Assembly (NCBI RefSeq): GCF_900172325.1
Contig: NZ_FWFR01000001.1
Span: 310,001 to 374,000, forward strand
From: Oceanibacterium hippocampi
Lineage (GTDB): Bacteria; Pseudomonadota; Alphaproteobacteria; Sneathiellales; Sneathiellaceae
Reading direction: 5' to 3'
Length of the DNA stretch: 64,000 nt
A model generated the notes under the pieces. It had not been told where the DNA came from, ran no database searches, and saw nothing but the letters and a program-made list of their open reading frames with translations. Made by a program: the position numbers and the translations under genes. Shown here one piece after another: positions 13,282 through 53,257 of the stretch (position 1 is its first letter; each line of letters opens with the position of its first letter).

Positions 13282-14520
13282 TCAGAAACTGGACGCCGCG
13301 GCCGACTGGAAACCCCCGAGGCCGTTGGCCATTCTCGGAGCGCCGCTGGCCGGCCTCCCGGACTTGTAGACCGCGCGATGATTGGCGCGGTCGGCGACCC
13401 GGGAAATATCGATCGAGGGATCGCCGTCGACCAGCAGGAGGTCCGCATGGGCGCCCTCGGCAAGCCGGCCCTGCTGCTCCAGCCCGACGAGATCGGCCGC
13501 GACCGCCGTCGCGGCGCGGAGCGCATCGATCGGCGACATGCCCTCCTCGACCATGTAGCGGAGTTCCTGGGCGTTCTCGCCGTGGAGGTTGTAGGGCGTT
13601 CCTGCGTCGGTGCCCATGGCGATCCGACCGCCGGCCTCGTAAAAGCGGCGGAACGAGGCCTTGTGGGCCTGGTAGACCCGTTCGCATTTCCGCACCGCCC
13701 ATTCGGGGATGCCACGGTCCTTGTTGCGCAGGATATTGGCGACCGCCGACAGGGTCGGCACGAGGTAGGTGCCGCGCTCGATCATTTCCTTCAGGCAGTC
13801 GTCGTCCATGAAGATACCGTGCTCGATCGAGGTGACGCCGCCGCGCACCGCGTTCAGGATGCCTTCGGCGCCCTGGGCGTGGCTGACCGTACGGCGCCGG
13901 AATCGATTTGCCTCGGCGATGCCGGCGGCCATCTCCTCGGCAGAGTAATGGGCGTCCTCCGGATCGACACCAGGCGTCATGACACCGCCGGTGGCCATGA
14001 TCTTGATCTGGTCGACGCCGGCGTGAATCTGCTCGCGCACCGCGCGGATCACGTCGTCCTTGCCGTCGGCGACCCGCCCGGTGCGGTTGCCGTGACCGCC
14101 GGTCATGCAGATGACACGGCCCGAGGCGCTGACCACCGGGCCTTCGAAGGTCCCGGCCTTGATCGCGTCCCGAACCCGAAGCTCGACGTAGTTCCGGCCG
14201 CCGCAATCGCGAACCGCGACGACGCCGCCGCGCAGCGTCTTCTGCGCCCGTTCTAGTGCCTTCAGCGCCATTCCGGCATCGTCCAGCTTGTCCTGTGCGC
14301 CGCCGGGGTCGCCCTCGGCCCCGAGGCAGAGGTGAACATGGCAATCGACCAGCCCGGGCATCAGCGTCGCGCCGGCGCAATCCACGGTTTCCCCGGCAAA
14401 GCCGCTGAAAGTTCCGGCCGCGGCGATCTTCGCGATCCGTCCGTTCTCCACGAGCACGGCCTGACCGTCCTGCATGGTCTTGCCGTCGAAAAGGCGACCA
14501 CCGGTGAAAAGCAGGGTCAT
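13282..14520 (-). CDS. Metal-dependent amidohydrolase (COG1228 family)
   Basis: The 412-residue product belongs to the amidohydrolase superfamily. Metal ligands are visible: MPGLVDCHVHLCLG (HxH, about residues 60-62), a lysine in IKIMATGGVMTPG, histidines in TVSHAQG and SIEHG, and the aspartate in MGTDAGTP. This arrangement matches the group related to imidazolonepropionase that includes Xaa-Arg and Xaa-Pro dipeptidases. It is not HutI itself: the HutI signature after the HxH motif is absent. The substrate is likely a small cyclic amide or a dipeptide. A GST gene lies 60 bases upstream on the same strand. Confidence 0.87.
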   Translation of the reverse strand: MTLLFTGGRLFDGKTMQDGQAVLVENGRIAKIAAAGTFSGFAGETVDCAGATLMPGLVDCHVHLCLGAEGDPGGAQDKLDDAGMALKALERAQKTLRGGVVAVRDCGGRNYVELRVRDAIKAGTFEGPVVSASGRVICMTGGHGNRTGRVADGKDDVIRAVREQIHAGVDQIKIMATGGVMTPGVDPEDAHYSAEEMAAGIAEANRFRRRTVSHAQGAEGILNAVRGGVTSIEHGIFMDDDCLKEMIERGTYLVPTLSAVANILRNKDRGIPEWAVRKCERVYQAHKASFRRFYEAGGRIAMGTDAGTPYNLHGENAQELRYMVEEGMSPIDALRAATAVAADLVGLEQQGRLAEGAHADLLLVDGDPSIDISRVADRANHRAVYKSGRPASGAPRMANGLGGFQSAAASSF

Positions 14521-16295: not shown

Positions 16296-17111
16296 TCAGG
16301 CCAGCCGTGGATAGCCGCCCGCCGCCGCCTGCCGGGCCAATCCGTCGATCCGCCGGTAGGTTCTCTTGTCACAGGGAACGAAGCCTTCGAGCAACAGCGC
16401 CGCGCGGACCGGCGCGAGGGCCGGATCGACCCCGATCGACCCGAGTATGCGGCGAATCGTGCGACGTTCCGCCGGGCTCCTTTGCCTGGCCGTAATGATC
16501 GGCAGGGTCGGGCCCGAGGCGGTGCGGCCGAGCACCCGGATACCGACAACGGCGCGGGGACGATAGCGGGCAAGCAACGCGAAGCTGACGCAATCGACCG
16601 CAGCGATATCCGCACGGCCGGTGGCGACCGCCGCGAGGCTTTCGACATGCGCCCCGGTCATCACCAGCCCGCCGAAGAACCGCCCGTCACGCGCGTGCGG
16701 TGCGACGGCATGACGGAACAGGTTCATCCCGGTGTTCGAATCGTGGCCGTTCAAGGCCGCGACCCGGCCCCGGAAGTCAGCAAGAACGTGACCGTTCGCA
16801 TCGGCCCGGACCACGAGGAAGGAACAATGACGTCCCGCGTCTTCGCATCCGGGCGCCTGGTATACCGGGCGGGCGAGCGGTATGGCGTCTCCCGCGATGC
16901 CGTTCATCAGTGGATACCCGCAGGTCTGCGCGAGCAGCAGGTCAGGCGAACGCCAGACCGCCGGCGGCGCAACGTCACGGACGAGGCTTGTCGGGACATT
17001 CCCGAGGCCGGCCTCGCGGAGTCGGCCGGCAATCGCCGACCAGAGCGCATCGGTCGCCGATCTGACCTCCTCGAAATCATACATCGGCAGCGCGGCGATC
17101 AGTTCGCTCAT
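16296..17111 (-). CDS. PhnD/SsuA-type binding protein without signal peptide
   Basis: The 271-residue product has the type 2 periplasmic-binding-protein fold of the PhnD family. It opens AALPMYDFEEVRSATDALW, continues with LLLAQTCGYPLM, and has the conserved RVAALNGHDSNTGMNLFRH and ADIAAVDCVSFALLARY blocks that line the ligand site. No signal peptide or lipobox is present and no transporter genes are adjacent, so it is probably cytoplasmic. Its ATG overlaps the stop of hutF (ATGA), so it is the second gene of a hutF operon. A ligand-sensing or scavenging role tied to histidine breakdown is inference. Confidence 0.8.
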   Translation of the reverse strand: MSELIAALPMYDFEEVRSATDALWSAIAGRLREAGLGNVPTSLVRDVAPPAVWRSPDLLLAQTCGYPLMNGIAGDAIPLARPVYQAPGCEDAGRHCSFLVVRADANGHVLADFRGRVAALNGHDSNTGMNLFRHAVAPHARDGRFFGGLVMTGAHVESLAAVATGRADIAAVDCVSFALLARYRPRAVVGIRVLGRTASGPTLPIITARQRSPAERRTIRRILGSIGVDPALAPVRAALLLEGFVPCDKRTYRRIDGLARQAAAGGYPRLA

Positions 17112-18508
17112 GACTGGAGCTCCGGCAGGATACGGCGCAGTACGGTCGCGTAGGCCGCGTGAGCGGCCGGTTCATCCGGATGGACACCGTCGCGGACCCG
17201 CCACCGGCCGCCGACCAGGACATCGCGGACCGGTGGTGCGCTGGCGGCAAAGATCGCCGCGTCGAGCAGGCCGTCACCGGTCCGGCCAAGCAATGCCGGC
17301 TGTTCGGCGTCAAGCACGAGGAGGTCCGCCCGCGCGCCCGGTCCGATGCGACCTACCGGGCGCCCTGTGGCCAGGGCACCGTTCGCCGCCGCCTCGCCGA
17401 ACATCCAGCGGCCGACGGATCCGGTACCGTCCGCGGCACCCATGAGCAGGTTGCGCCGGCCATGCACGAGACGCTGGCCGTATTCGAGAAGACGCAGTTC
17501 CTCGAACGGCGACAGGCCGACATGACTGTCGCTGCCGATCGCCATGCGCCCGCCGGCCGCCATGAAATCGACGGCGCGGAACAGGCCGTCGCCGAGATTG
17601 GCCTCGGTCGTCGGACACAGTCCGGCGATCGCGCCGGACCGCGCCAGCCCGTCCGTCTCGTCGCCGTCCATATGCGTGGCGTGGACCAGGCACCAGCGGG
17701 CGTCGATGTCGTGATTGTCGAGCAGCCAGGCAACTGGCCGGCGACCCAGATGACGCTGGATCTCCTCGACTTCAGCCGGTTGCTCGGCAACGTGAATATG
17801 GCGGGGAGCCGCAGCGTCGAATGCATCGAGCATCGCGAGGGCATCGCGCAACGCCGCCGGCGGCAGCGCCCTGAGCGAATGCGGCGCCATGCCCGCGCGC
17901 CCCGCGTTCGCCTTCAGGCTGTCGCCGGTCGCGGCGATGATCTCCATCGCCAGTTCGCCGTCGCAGCGAAAGCGGACCTGGCGGGCCTCCAGCGGACCGC
18001 CATCGGCGCCGGCTCGGAGATAGAGCACCGGCAGCAAGGTCAGCCCGATGCCCGCGCGCGCGGCGGCGGCGGCGATGCGTTGCGCCATTTCCGCCGGATC
18101 GGCATAGCGGCTGCCATCCGGCGCGCGATGCAGGTAATGAAACTCGGCGACGGCGGTATAGCCGGCCTTCAGCATGCGGATGTAAAGCAGGGTCGCGATG
18201 GCCTCGAGATCTTCCGGCCCGAGGGCGGCGACGAAGCCGTACATCATCTGCCGCCAGCTCCAGAAGCTGTCGTCCGGCCGCGCGCGATACTCGGCAAGGC
18301 CGGCCATCGCCCATTGGAAGGCGTGACTGTGGCAGTTGGGAATCCCGGGCACGACAGGCCCGCGCAGGTGCTCCGCCCCATCGGGGGCGGCGCCGGAACG
18401 GACATCCGAAAAATGCCCGTCGGCGCTGACTTCCAGGCGCACGTCCCGGGCCCAGCCGCCGTCAAGCAGCGCCTCGTCCGCGAACAATACGCGCGCCGTA
18501 CCGGTCAT
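17108..18508 (-). CDS. hutF: Formimidoylglutamate deiminase
   Basis: HutF deaminates N-formimidoyl-L-glutamate to N-formyl-L-glutamate and ammonia in the five-step histidine pathway. The 466-residue amidohydrolase shows metal-site motifs [14 protein letters not shown] (HxH), [20 protein letters not shown] and [20 protein letters not shown]. The ATG at 18508 begins a normal-length HutF; the open frame upstream to 18730 is antisense to hutU sequence and is not part of it. It diverges from hutU across a 106-base gap holding a HutC-type operator, and is coupled to the PhnD-like gene downstream. Confidence 0.95.
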
Positions 18509-18614: not shown

Positions 18615-20287
<1,673 letters not shown>

Positions 20288-20291
<4 letters not shown>

Positions 20292-21094
20292 CGCCGGGCC
20301 GCCCAGTCGAGCAGCCAGCCCAGCATGTCACGCAGCACCGCCTGCAGGGCGGTCGCCTTTTCCTCGTCGAAGCTGAAGGGCGGCGCCTCGTCCATGTAGG
20401 TCGCCTGCGCGAGTTCGAGCTGGATCGCGTGGATACCGTCGCCCGGCGCACCGTAATGCCGTGTGATGTACCCGCCCTTGAAGCGACCGTCGACGACATG
20501 GCTGTAACCGCTCGTCCCGGCAATCCCCGCCAGCCCCTCGACGATCTCGCCGAAAGCCGTCGTTCCGCCCCCGAAACCAAGATTGAGATCGGGCAACCGG
20601 CCATCGAAGAAGCGCGGCACGACCGAGCGGATCGAATGGGCGTCGAACAGCAGCGCAACACCGTGGGTCTCGCGGATCCGTCGAAGCTCGGCCCCGAGCG
20701 CGTCGTGATAGGGCCGCCAGTAGGCGCTGATCCGCCGGGCGGTCTCGGCCGCGTCCGGCGGCGCATCACGGTAGATCGGCGCCTCGTCGAACGTCGTCGT
20801 CGGGCAAAGCTCGGTGACACTCCGCCCCGGATAGAGCGAGGCTCCCGACGGGTCGCGGTTGAGATCGACGACATAACGGGCGTAGCGGGGCGTCAGCATC
20901 CCGGCCCCCAGTTCCCGGGCGAAGGCGTAGAGCCGGTCGATATGCCAGTCCGCGTCGATCGCGGCGCGGCCCTCGGCGGTCATCGTCCGGGCGAGATCGT
21001 CCGGTACGGCCGACGCCGTATGGGGCATGGAAACGAGAAGCGGCACCCTGGCCGCTTCCAGCGTGTAGACATCCTGATTCAAGTCGCGCACCAC
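20288..21094 (-). CDS. hutG: N-formylglutamate deformylase
   Basis: HutG hydrolyses N-formylglutamate to glutamate and formate, the last step of the HutF branch. The 268-residue protein shows [11 protein letters not shown] near the start, [26 protein letters not shown] and the C-terminal [14 protein letters not shown] block, all typical of the FGase family with its zinc site. The start is one of two tandem GTG codons at 21094 and 21091; no ATG is near. It lies 23 bases after the DddP-like gene on the same strand and probably shares its transcript. Confidence 0.93.
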
Positions 21095-21117: not shown

Positions 21118-22305
21118 TCAGAGAAAGCGCTCCTCGAACGGATAGCCCGACAGCACTTCCACACCGGTCTCGGTGATCAGGAGCTGTTCCTCGAGCTTGA
21201 CCCCGTCGGGTCCACCGACCTCGCCGACATAGCTTTCGACGCAGACCGTCATACCCGGTTCAAGGACGCCTTCATACCCCGCCATCGCCACATCCTCGGG
21301 ATAGACGACGGATGGAAACTCGTCGCAGAGCCCGACCCCGTGCGCGATCACCGAATAGCGCTGCGCCCGGTAGGGATCGGGAAGCTGAAAGCCGAGTTCG
21401 GTGAACTCGGTATGGGTCATGCCGGGCTTCAGGACCTCGATATTGCGGGTGACCTGTTCGTGCGCGATCGCATAGATCCTCCGCTGGCGATCGTTCGGCA
21501 TCCCGTCACCGGCCCGCCAGCTCCGCGAGATATCGGCGCAATAGCCCTCCGGACCGATCAGATCGGTATCGAAACAAACCAGGTCGCCCGTTTCGATGAC
21601 CCGGTGACCGCACTCCTGAAACCACGGGTTGGTCCGCTGGCCGGAGGCAAGCAGCCTGGTCTCGATCCACTCCCCGCCACGGGAGATATTGACCTGGTGC
21701 AGGATCGACCAGACCTCGTTCTCGGTCATGCCGGGCTGAAGCGCCGCCTGCATCGCCGCCATGCCGGCCTCGGCACTGGCAATCGCGAGCCGCATCGCCT
21801 TCACCTCTTCCGGACCCTTGATCCGGCGCGCCGCCTCGGACACCGCCTGGCCGTCGGCGAGCCGGATCCCGTGCCGGGTCAGCGCCTCCACCCCGATCGG
21901 CTCCAGCCGGTCGACGGCGAGCCGGCCGCCGGGCGCCCATTGCCGCCAGAGATCGACGATCTCGCCGGCCCAGAGGGTCGCCCGTTCATCGACCACCGGT
22001 CCGGCGGCGAAATAGGTCCAGGCCCGCGCCGGGCGGACCTCGGCGATCACCTCGATGCCGTCGGAGAGATGGGCGCAGCCGTGGAAGTCGAACAACGTGA
22101 TCGGGCCTTCGAGCGGCACGAAAACGTAACGCACCGGGTTGTGCAGGACCCAGACCTGCATGTTCGAGCTGCCGGTCGCGTAACGGATATTGATCGGGTC
22201 GTAGAACAGTGCGGCGGCGACGTCCCGGGCCTTCATCTCCGCCCGCAGGCGGTCCAGTCGCCATGCGCGCAACGCAACCTGATCGATCGCTACCGCCTCG
22301 AACAT
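21118..22305 (-). CDS. M24-fold metalloenzyme, candidate DddP-type DMSP lyase
   Basis: The 395-residue product has the pita-bread fold of the M24/creatinase family. Closest in motif pattern is DddP, which cleaves dimethylsulfoniopropionate to dimethyl sulfide and acrylate. Predicted metal ligands are D246, D248, D258, H322, E357 and E372; spacings from D246 onward (2, 12, 76, 111, 126) equal those I recall for the iron ligands of Roseobacter DddP. Y317 and D328 occupy the positions of its Y366 and proposed base D377; ordinary M24 peptidases differ there. The N-terminal part has YDPINIRYATGSSNMQVW and FDFHGCAHLS, also DddP-like. It lacks about 50 N-terminal residues of classical DddP. An unspecified M24 peptidase remains possible. 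Confidence 0.65.
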   Translation of the reverse strand: MFEAVAIDQVALRAWRLDRLRAEMKARDVAAALFYDPINIRYATGSSNMQVWVLHNPVRYVFVPLEGPITLFDFHGCAHLSDGIEVIAEVRPARAWTYFAAGPVVDERATLWAGEIVDLWRQWAPGGRLAVDRLEPIGVEALTRHGIRLADGQAVSEAARRIKGPEEVKAMRLAIASAEAGMAAMQAALQPGMTENEVWSILHQVNISRGGEWIETRLLASGQRTNPWFQECGHRVIETGDLVCFDTDLIGPEGYCADISRSWRAGDGMPNDRQRRIYAIAHEQVTRNIEVLKPGMTHTEFTELGFQLPDPYRAQRYSVIAHGVGLCDEFPSVVYPEDVAMAGYEGVLEPGMTVCVESYVGEVGGPDGVKLEEQLLITETGVEVLSGYPFEERFL

Positions 22306-51728: not shown

Positions 51729-52235
51729 ATGCACGCCACACCCGACGATCTCTTTCGACGCCTGGGCGAACTCGGGATCCCGGTGGAAACCCATCACCAC
51801 GCGCCGGTCTTCACCGTCGACGAGGCCCGGGCGCTCCGTGGCCAGCTCGACGGCGGTCATTGCAAGAGTCTGTTCCTGAAGGACAAGAAGGGCGCGCTCT
51901 TCCTTGTTGTCTGCCTGGAGGATGCCGGTGTCGACCTGAAGGCCCTGCGCCGGAAGATCGGCGCGGCGCAGCTCAGCTTCGGCAAGCCGGAACTGCTGAT
52001 GGAGATTCTCGGCGTGATTCCGGGCTCGGTCACGCCGTTCGCCCTGATGAACGATCGCGAGCGTCGGGTGACCGTGGTGCTGCAGTCGGAAATGCTCGCA
52101 CTTGAGCAGCTCAACTATCACCCGCTCGAGAACGACAAGACCACGCAGATCGCGTCCCGCGACCTGCTGCGATTCGTCAAGGCTTGCGGTCACGACCCGG
52201 TAATCGTGTCGATCGAACCGGACGTCGGCGACTAG
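51729..52235 (+). CDS. ProX/YbaK-type aminoacyl-tRNA deacylase
   Basis: The 168-residue product is a YbaK-domain editing protein of the free-standing ProX (PrdX, ProXp-ala) kind, which removes wrong amino acids such as alanine from tRNA-Pro. The domain blocks HAPVFTVDEARAL, GGHCKSLFLKDKKGALFLVV (with the conserved lysine), LMEILGVIPGSVTPFALMND and FHPLENDKT-like YHPLENDKTTQI are in order. The leader is the hairpin-rich region 51577-51693. Confidence 0.9.
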   Translation: MHATPDDLFRRLGELGIPVETHHHAPVFTVDEARALRGQLDGGHCKSLFLKDKKGALFLVVCLEDAGVDLKALRRKIGAAQLSFGKPELLMEILGVIPGSVTPFALMNDRERRVTVVLQSEMLALEQLNYHPLENDKTTQIASRDLLRFVKACGHDPVIVSIEPDVGD

Positions 52236-52348
52236 GACCTGGCGCCGGATCGCACTCGGCGATCACTTGGCAATCGCCGCGATGTGACCCATCTATCTGC
52301 CGGGGGGCGTCGCGGATCTGAAACCGGCACAACGCGACAGAATGGACG

Positions 52349-53257
52349 ATGGAAAATTTGATCGGACAACAGGCGTCGAACGCCACGGATCTCGTCAAGA
52401 ACGGCGACATGCAGAGCTTCATGGCCGACGTCGTTGAAGCCAGCAACGATGTCACGGTACTCGTCGATTTCTACTCGAACGCATCGCCTGCGAGCGGACA
52501 GCTTTCGGCGCTTCTCGAGAAGGTGGTGCGTCAGGCCGGCGGCGTGGTCAGGCTCGTCCGCATGGAGTTCGAGCGCAATGGCCCGCTGGTCCAGCAACTC
52601 CGTCTGCAGAGTGTCCCGGCCGTCCTCGCCTTTCGCAACGGGCAGCCGGTCGACGGCTTTCTCGGGCCGCTGCCCGAAGCGCAGCTGAAGCAGTTCATCG
52701 GCCATGTTGCCGGCGCCCAGATCGGCCCGTCCGAAGCGGAAGAGGCGCTCGCGATCGGATCGGAGGCGCTGGAGGCGGGCAATCTCGAGCAGGCGATCAT
52801 GGCCTTCTCGCAAGCCGTTCATCATGAACCCGACAATGTCGAGGCGATCGGTGGGCTCGCCCGGGCGCAGGTGCTGGCGGGCGATCTGGATGGCGCCAGG
52901 GAACTGCTCGACAGCCTCGAGACGGCGCTGGCGGAACAGACCGCGATCAAGGGCGCCCGGTCGGCGCTCACCCTCGCCGAACAGGCCGCCAATGCACCTG
53001 ACACGGCGCCGCTGCTCGCGACCCTCGAACAGAATCCCGCCGATCATGGGACCCGCTTCGAGCTTGCCAAGGCACTCATCGCCGGTGGCCGTACCGAAGA
53101 AGGCGCCGAGGAGCTGCTTGAGATCATGCGCCGCGACCGGGCATGGAACGACGAGGCCGCGCGGAAGGAACTGCTGACGCTGTTCGAGGCGATCGGGCTC
53201 ACCCATCCGCTCACCATCACGCTCCGCCGGAAGCTCTCCTCACTCCTGTTCGCATGA
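52349..53257 (+). CDS. Thioredoxin-TPR protein lacking both active-site cysteines (YbbN/CnoX-like)
   Basis: The 302-residue protein has an N-terminal thioredoxin fold (about 22-115) and TPR helices (about 125-300), the architecture of YbbN/CnoX, a holdase that works with GroEL and DnaK in E. coli. VLVDFYSNASPASGQL stands where thioredoxin has FWAPWCGPCKQL: both cysteines are serine (S46, S49), and the whole protein has no cysteine. The cis-proline is kept (SVPAVLAF, P90). It cannot act as a disulfide reductase, so a purely chaperone role is likely. Its stop overlaps the start of the LON-domain gene. Confidence 0.88.
   Translation: MENLIGQQASNATDLVKNGDMQSFMADVVEASNDVTVLVDFYSNASPASGQLSALLEKVVRQAGGVVRLVRMEFERNGPLVQQLRLQSVPAVLAFRNGQPVDGFLGPLPEAQLKQFIGHVAGAQIGPSEAEEALAIGSEALEAGNLEQAIMAFSQAVHHEPDNVEAIGGLARAQVLAGDLDGARELLDSLETALAEQTAIKGARSALTLAEQAANAPDTAPLLATLEQNPADHGTRFELAKALIAGGRTEEGAEELLEIMRRDRAWNDEAARKELLTLFEAIGLTHPLTITLRRKLSSLLFA

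Follow-up and report, generated by a model that had tools for sequence, protein, structure and literature searches.

The dddP gene is described as the most widely distributed bacterial gene for a dimethylsulfoniopropionate (DMSP) lyase, and counts of it feed estimates of the oceanic potential for dimethyl sulfide (DMS) release. In the mechanism proposed for DddP (PMC5395565, PMC4108388), DMSP is bound through its carboxylate by a movable iron and through its sulfonium by a Trp and a Tyr, and its C-alpha proton is abstracted by an Asp. In Ruegeria pomeroyi, the MttB-family protein MtgB acts with MtgC and MtgD in glycine betaine demethylation; in aerobic marine bacteria this reaction is the work of MtgB proteins (PMC12478193).

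The window analysed here (the whole 64,000-nucleotide stretch, positions 310,001 to 374,000 of contig NZ_FWFR01000001.1 of Oceanibacterium hippocampi, GCF_900172325.1) holds the only close DddP-like protein encoded in the host genome (4.83 Mb, 18 contigs). Its reading frame runs on the minus strand from an ATG at 22305 down to 21118 (395 aa); the original prediction, which proposed a DddP-type DMSP lyase, named no strand. The ligand codons, from D246 through E372, were read directly. The hutG gene starts 23 nt downstream on the same strand, a spacing that suggests that the two are probably co-transcribed; a promoter/terminator scan of the locus was uninformative. The PhnD-like gene of the locus has homologues co-localised in 32 of 100 dddP-like loci, and these flank dddP-like genes in Mesorhizobium and others. 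Elsewhere in the window, an amidohydrolase gene (13282-14520, minus strand) has as its nearest model the ‘Xaa-Pro dipeptidase’ NF051886 (277 bits, cut-off 500) and is not hutI. YbaK-like and thioredoxin/YbbN-like genes lie at 51729-53257, 30 kb from the DddP-like gene; a set of the same kind adjoins the dddP-like gene in Tistlia (L006) and at loci L013, L018 and L025.

Features of the DddP-like locus (positions are those of the window; D-type denotes the residue set that accompanies Asp at RlDddP position 377)
Feature	Position	Strand	Basis
DddP-like M24 protein, 395 aa, D-type, without N-terminal appendix	21118..22305	-	phmmer, NF043017, AF2, Foldseek
W52 and H55	22141..22152	-	RlDddP W95, H98; co-vary with D377 across the family
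Metal ligands D246 (21568-21570), D248 (21562-21564), D258 (21532-21534)	within 21532..21570	-	alignment with RlDddP D295, D297, D307
C256, D-type residue	21538..21540	-	aligns with RlDddP C305
Y317 (21355-21357), H322 (21340-21342), D328 (21322-21324)	21322..21357	-	RlDddP Y366, H371, D377
Metal ligands E357 (21235-21237), E372 (21190-21192)	21190..21237	-	RlDddP E406, E421
hutG, N-formylglutamate deformylase	20288..21094	-	TIGR02017 333.7 bits, cut-off 278.75
hutU, urocanate hydratase	18651..20291	+	TIGR01228 962.6 bits, cut-off 375; ORF opens at 18336, family match from about 18651
hutF, formimidoylglutamate deiminase	17108..18493	-	TIGR02022 555.7 bits, cut-off 413; ORF opens at 18730, match from about 18493
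PhnD-like binding protein	16296..17111	-	weak PhnD model matches; 4 nt overlap with hutF

By its active site and its predicted fold, the window protein is DddP-like. A phmmer search of the PDB placed RlDddP (4RZY, E 1.5e-105, a value which excludes a chance match) and RdDddP (4B28) at the top, both at about 45% identity, followed by prolidases at E 3.5e-19 and weaker. The expectation that six metal ligands would reproduce the DddP spacing was borne out, as all six align with those of RlDddP at a constant offset of +49, which Y317 and D328 share; that these two are the substrate-site Tyr and the proposed base Asp is likewise supported, because the deposited mutants Y366A (4S00) and D377N (4S01) depart from the wild type at exactly these columns. 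Of the 82 columns with a conservation of 95% or more among the DddPs with an N-terminal appendix (a clade described below), the protein matches 76, with inner mismatches at G45, Y60, V86 and W112 (DddP D88, A103, L129 and F155), and it keeps every Trp column conserved in that clade. An AlphaFold2 model, built from the window protein aligned with 73 relatives (five plasmid-record rows left out), has a mean pLDDT of 94.8 and a pTM of 0.92. Foldseek ranks RlDddP and RdDddP at the top for this predicted model, which superposes on them, as had been anticipated, at 1.6 A with a TM by query length of 0.94-0.95 and 43-44% identity; prolidases come next, at TM of about 0.75.

These prolidase matches, the Pfam Peptidase_M24 and Creatinase_N domains that both match the protein, and the generic PGAP name of its relatives (‘Xaa-Pro peptidase family protein’) might point to a proline-type peptidase, either an M24B prolidase or an aminopeptidase P. 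However, the window protein is far closer to DddP in both sequence and structure, it has the Asp377 column with the rest of the D-type set, and RlDddP itself is without measurable Val-Pro activity (PMC5395565). We regard a peptidase function as very improbable.

The window protein scores 419.6 bits on the NCBIfam DddP equivalog model NF043017, against a cut-off of 600, and the match covers positions 52-442 of 443. DddP-like proteins (E at or below 1e-80) were found in 78 of 385 sampled alphaproteobacterial genomes, only 12 of which hold a protein that meets the cut-off, and most of the sub-cut-off proteins likewise begin near model position 50. Reading the N-termini separates two sets. One carries an NRKIDPSRR...PDGTPNDNDRVEIGPT..LAF.EW type of motif, the counterpart of the RdDddP appendix (residues 10-50; PMC4108388); the window protein and the rest are without it. 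Thus the N-terminal 50 or so residues are indeed absent, as had been noted, but this is normal for the branch and does not make the protein an unusual member. A truncated dddP can be rejected, since the appendix-less start is common to the branch and the upstream open frame allows only about 11 more codons.

In both FastTree and IQ-TREE trees (the latter with the appendix columns left out, and both without the fungal, HWgs001 and R. nubinhibens DddP sequences), the appendix proteins fall on one side of a branch (support 1.0; SH-aLRT 99) and the window protein outside it, near a Minwuiaceae protein and Tistlia. The phylogeny check proposed with the original prediction therefore has a divided outcome: the window protein lies outside the appendix clade that holds the crystallised DddPs in both trees, but a position as sister of that clade is not rejected (dlnL 1.6, p-AU 0.47). 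A tree that nests it within the main appendix clade is worse by 48.6 log-likelihood units (p-AU 0.073), and is disfavoured though not formally rejected. Species of the sister genus carry an appendix-type DddP (genome G004, 692 bits). One DddP-like protein of the window protein’s own family (L108; G009:C1:2127554-2131720) has Cys at the Tyr366 position and Asn at the Asp377 position, with the ligands intact.

The Asp after HGVGLC had been taken as a mark of DMSP lyases. At this position (377), 157 aligned DddP-like rows, including the window protein and the two PDB sequences, have 128 Asp, 28 Gly and one Asn; two remote M24 paralogues encoded by the host are unaligned at this column. Further columns change with it: W95, H98, F142, W262 and C305 in D-type proteins versus mostly F/Y, R, V, Y and Y/F in G-type proteins, and the window protein has the whole D-type set (W52, H55, W213, C256, Y317, D328). 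Although 22 other DddP-like representatives (the G-type) are without Asp377, it is common to all 47 appendix-less D-type representatives, including Mesorhizobium proteins encoded in betaine-demethylation loci. We therefore reject this Asp as proof of a DMSP lyase; since the D-type set occurs both in no-appendix proteins and in appendix DddPs, what it denotes is a class of chemistry or substrate that extends beyond verified DddP.

What the no-appendix D-type proteins do is suggested by the company that their genes keep. Among 100 dddP-like loci gathered by similarity to the window protein, homologues of MttB occur in 39 and DMGDH-like homologues in 40. The loci with these genes are mostly from Mesorhizobium, with about 10 other lineages and a varied gene order; MttB-family and/or DMGDH-like flavoprotein genes lie beside no-appendix D-type genes in Mesorhizobium, in Minwuia (L012) and at L016, L019, L026, L032, L088, L151, L156, L157 and L158, of which L012 and L157 belong to a clade near the window protein. 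After removal of doubles, and counting loci with enough flank, a flank of 7.5 kb included MttB at 11 of the 38 no-appendix D-type loci versus 0 of the 28 appendix loci (p 0.0016), and acuI at 0 of 38 versus 6 of 28 (p 0.004), with related lineages treated as independent in both comparisons; MttB was not seen in the other 27 of the 38. The SAR116 members of the appendix clade adjoin acuI. Further no-appendix genes have as neighbours genes for Rieske oxygenases, for BCCT or glycine-betaine transporters and for a 4-hydroxyproline epimerase. The division is not clean: DMGDH-like genes also lie beside three appendix loci, and the Oceanimonas appendix locus holds Rieske and BCCT genes. A set of Rieske, ALDH, FAD-oxidoreductase and BCCT genes is next to dddP-like genes in both Oceanimonas (L029, appendix) and a Pseudomonas MPC6 plasmid (L086, no appendix). 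At L158 (5061-7519) two tandem D-type DddP-like genes lie beside MttB, DMGDH-like, PhnD-like, HTH and desaturase genes.

The nearest relatives of the window protein (L005, L140/Tistlia and Hwanghaeella) have no MttB or DMGDH-like module neighbours, and in the host the dddP-like gene is not physically adjacent to either gene. The host mttB homologue (C16:114365-115861, 55% to the Minwuia gene) lies beside hutH and hutI (C16:110-113 kb), 218 kb from the window locus with its dddP-like, hutG, hutU, hutF and PhnD-like genes; the desaturase and HTH regulator of the Mesorhizobium cluster are also beside it, and the DMGDH-like protein (57%) is encoded on contig C6. One host region (L190; G000:C16:102000-121900) brings together hutH, hutI, an FAD oxidoreductase, mttB, the desaturase and the HTH regulator: half of the betaine module and half of the hut pathway are intermingled there. 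On the other side of hutH and hutI is a gene that, judged by eye from its sequence, is putA-like.

Could the DddP-like enzyme then have a part, alongside the neighbouring hut genes, in catabolism related to histidine, for instance by converting hercynine or another methylated histidine that enters the Hut pathway? The close same-strand spacing to hutG, the host mttB beside hutHI, and the finding that hutH immediately adjoins hutG in 11 of 15 other related-genome loci (with hutG between hutH and hutU in 10 of the 15) are in keeping with such a role. We nevertheless consider it very improbable: hutF, hutG and hutU are near none of the dddP-like genes of about 85 relatives, the host hutH, hutI, hutU, hutF and hutG look ordinary, and the DddP-type base would need to act on a different carbon of hercynine. 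Moreover, a single rearrangement between hut operon and betaine module would account for both mixed loci; this would be one exchange of neighbours, for example an inversion with its ends between hutH and hutG and between mttB and the dddP-like gene. The dispersal of the host betaine module among hut genes and another contig thus suggests that the hut neighbourhood is probably a local rearrangement. The hut neighbourhood remarked on earlier is real in the host, hutG lying directly downstream, but is not common to the relatives examined, and for this reason we reject a functional hut linkage. We also reject a thiourocanate/ergothioneine route, as hutU scores as a plain urocanate hydratase and below the thiourocanate hydratase cut-offs, and a lyase standing in for a missing hutH, as hutH and hutI are elsewhere in the genome. 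At L153, a homologue of histidine/aromatic ammonia-lyases (36% to host HutH) is about 1.6 kb from a D-type gene.

We propose, with roughly even confidence, that the window protein is a DddP-like M24 enzyme of betaine or methylated-amine catabolism that works with MttB/MtgB and DMGDH-like partners. It is a ‘pita-bread’ enzyme from the DddP-like part of family M24 and would carry two metal ions, probably iron. By analogy with DddP, these would grip the carboxylate group of a small onium carboxylate whose onium head would be kept in place by Tyr317 and a conserved Trp; with Asp328 as proton acceptor, a carbon-heteroatom bond would then be broken. The presence of this Tyr and Asp, and the retention of the appendix-clade Trp columns, make elimination on an onium carboxylate the most likely chemistry, and the neighbouring betaine genes suggest that the branch in general acts on a methylated amine. 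Its normal role would most likely be one step in methylated amine or betaine catabolism, its partners being a corrinoid methyltransferase of MttB/MtgB type and a DMGDH-like flavoprotein, both encoded elsewhere in the host genome. Because the module is dispersed in the host and not beside the gene in its nearest relatives, this pathway link is made by family and not by the gene’s own operon. DMSP may be a side substrate, and is less likely to be the main one.

An alternative is that the protein works in vivo as a DMSP lyase, splitting DMSP into DMS and acrylate by beta-elimination as DddP does; it would then be a divergent DddP in which the appendix was lost or was never present. All of the active-site residues examined are those of proven DMSP lyases, so that the pocket does not exclude DMSP, and the close structural match to RlDddP and the tolerated sister placement agree with this. 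Verified DddPs also diverge widely (FgDddP has 32% identity to RdDddP; PMC4108388), DMS is made by the DddP of a gill symbiont in which the first ligand is D263 and the N-terminus hence shorter (PMC10989825), and the host has an AcuI-like protein (44%). Set against this are the score well under the NCBI cut-off, the cost of nesting within the main appendix clade, the absence of acuI beside any of the no-appendix D-type loci examined, where the family neighbours are betaine genes, and the lack of a DmdA over the cut-off in the host genome; the AcuI-like gene is unlinked to the dddP-like gene, and no acrylate genes are linked to it, although a DddP need not strictly have such genes in its host. 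We judge this function in vivo to be rather unlikely. The DMSP-lyase assignment of the original prediction thus stands for fold, metal site, Tyr and base Asp, but not for the curated cut-off or for membership of the crystallised-DddP clade; naming the window protein a DMSP lyase is premature, while such an activity is possible on the residues that it carries.

More tentatively, and with a confidence that falls short of even, we suggest for the preferred betaine reading a wider setting, in which the no-appendix D-type proteins would form an enzyme class whose DddP active site works on a nitrogen betaine or its demethylated product, with MttB-type methyltransferases and DMGDH-like flavoproteins as recurrent partners, in an undescribed aerobic catabolic pathway; this family would be the older, and the DMSP lyase DddP would have emerged from within it on acquiring the appendix and a preference for sulfonium.

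This bears on how DMSP lyases are counted. On a profile of six Roseobacter-type DddPs the window protein scores E 4.5e-111 (for 1e6 sequences), and each of the 47 no-appendix D-type representatives, like 21 of the 22 G-type ones, scores below 1e-70, the cut-off for DddP in one survey (PMC5395565); another used 1e-30 followed by key-residue checks (PMC8520302). Such E-value cut-offs would admit the no-appendix branch and even relatives without the catalytic Asp. Some of the enzymes counted under dddP may not release DMS, and surveys of the sulfur cycle may be taking no-appendix DddP-like enzymes for DddP. A sediment study named Mesorhizobium and Pseudomonas as main dddP carriers (PMC7039863); the Mesorhizobium DddP-like proteins analysed here are of the betaine-linked group, and we found no assays of rhizobial DddP-like proteins in the literature searched. 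The activity of a few members would bear both on overcounting in surveys and on the origin of DddP chemistry.

Considering the described systems together, the window protein shares with DddP (RlDddP 4RZY, RdDddP 4B28; NF043017) the fold, the six ligands and the Tyr366, Asp377, Trp95, His98, Trp262 and Cys305 columns, but differs in being without the appendix (the NRKIDPSRR...DNDRVEIGPT motif), in falling below the curated cut-off and outside the appendix clade, in having Y60/V86/W112 where the clade has A/L/F, and in a gene with no acrylate genes near it. With the no-appendix D-type proteins (Mesorhizobium, Minwuia, Rhodobiaceae, Afifellaceae and others) it shares the active-site columns, the absence of the appendix motif, the closest position in the tree and 52-63% identity; their genes, however, are often contiguous with mttB and DMGDH-like genes, whereas that of the window is among hutFUG with only the phnD-like gene near. 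The G-type proteins (Halobacillus, Alkalibacillus and many alphaproteobacteria) are of the same family, with the six ligands and Tyr366, but have Gly (once Asn) at 377 and mostly Phe/Arg/Tyr/Tyr at W95/H98/W262/C305. Creatinase, the ectoine hydrolase DoeA and prolidase (M24B) have the same pita-bread fold, and several of them act on small N-methyl or cyclic amine solutes, but they have only about 20% identity to the window protein and TM of 0.70-0.77.
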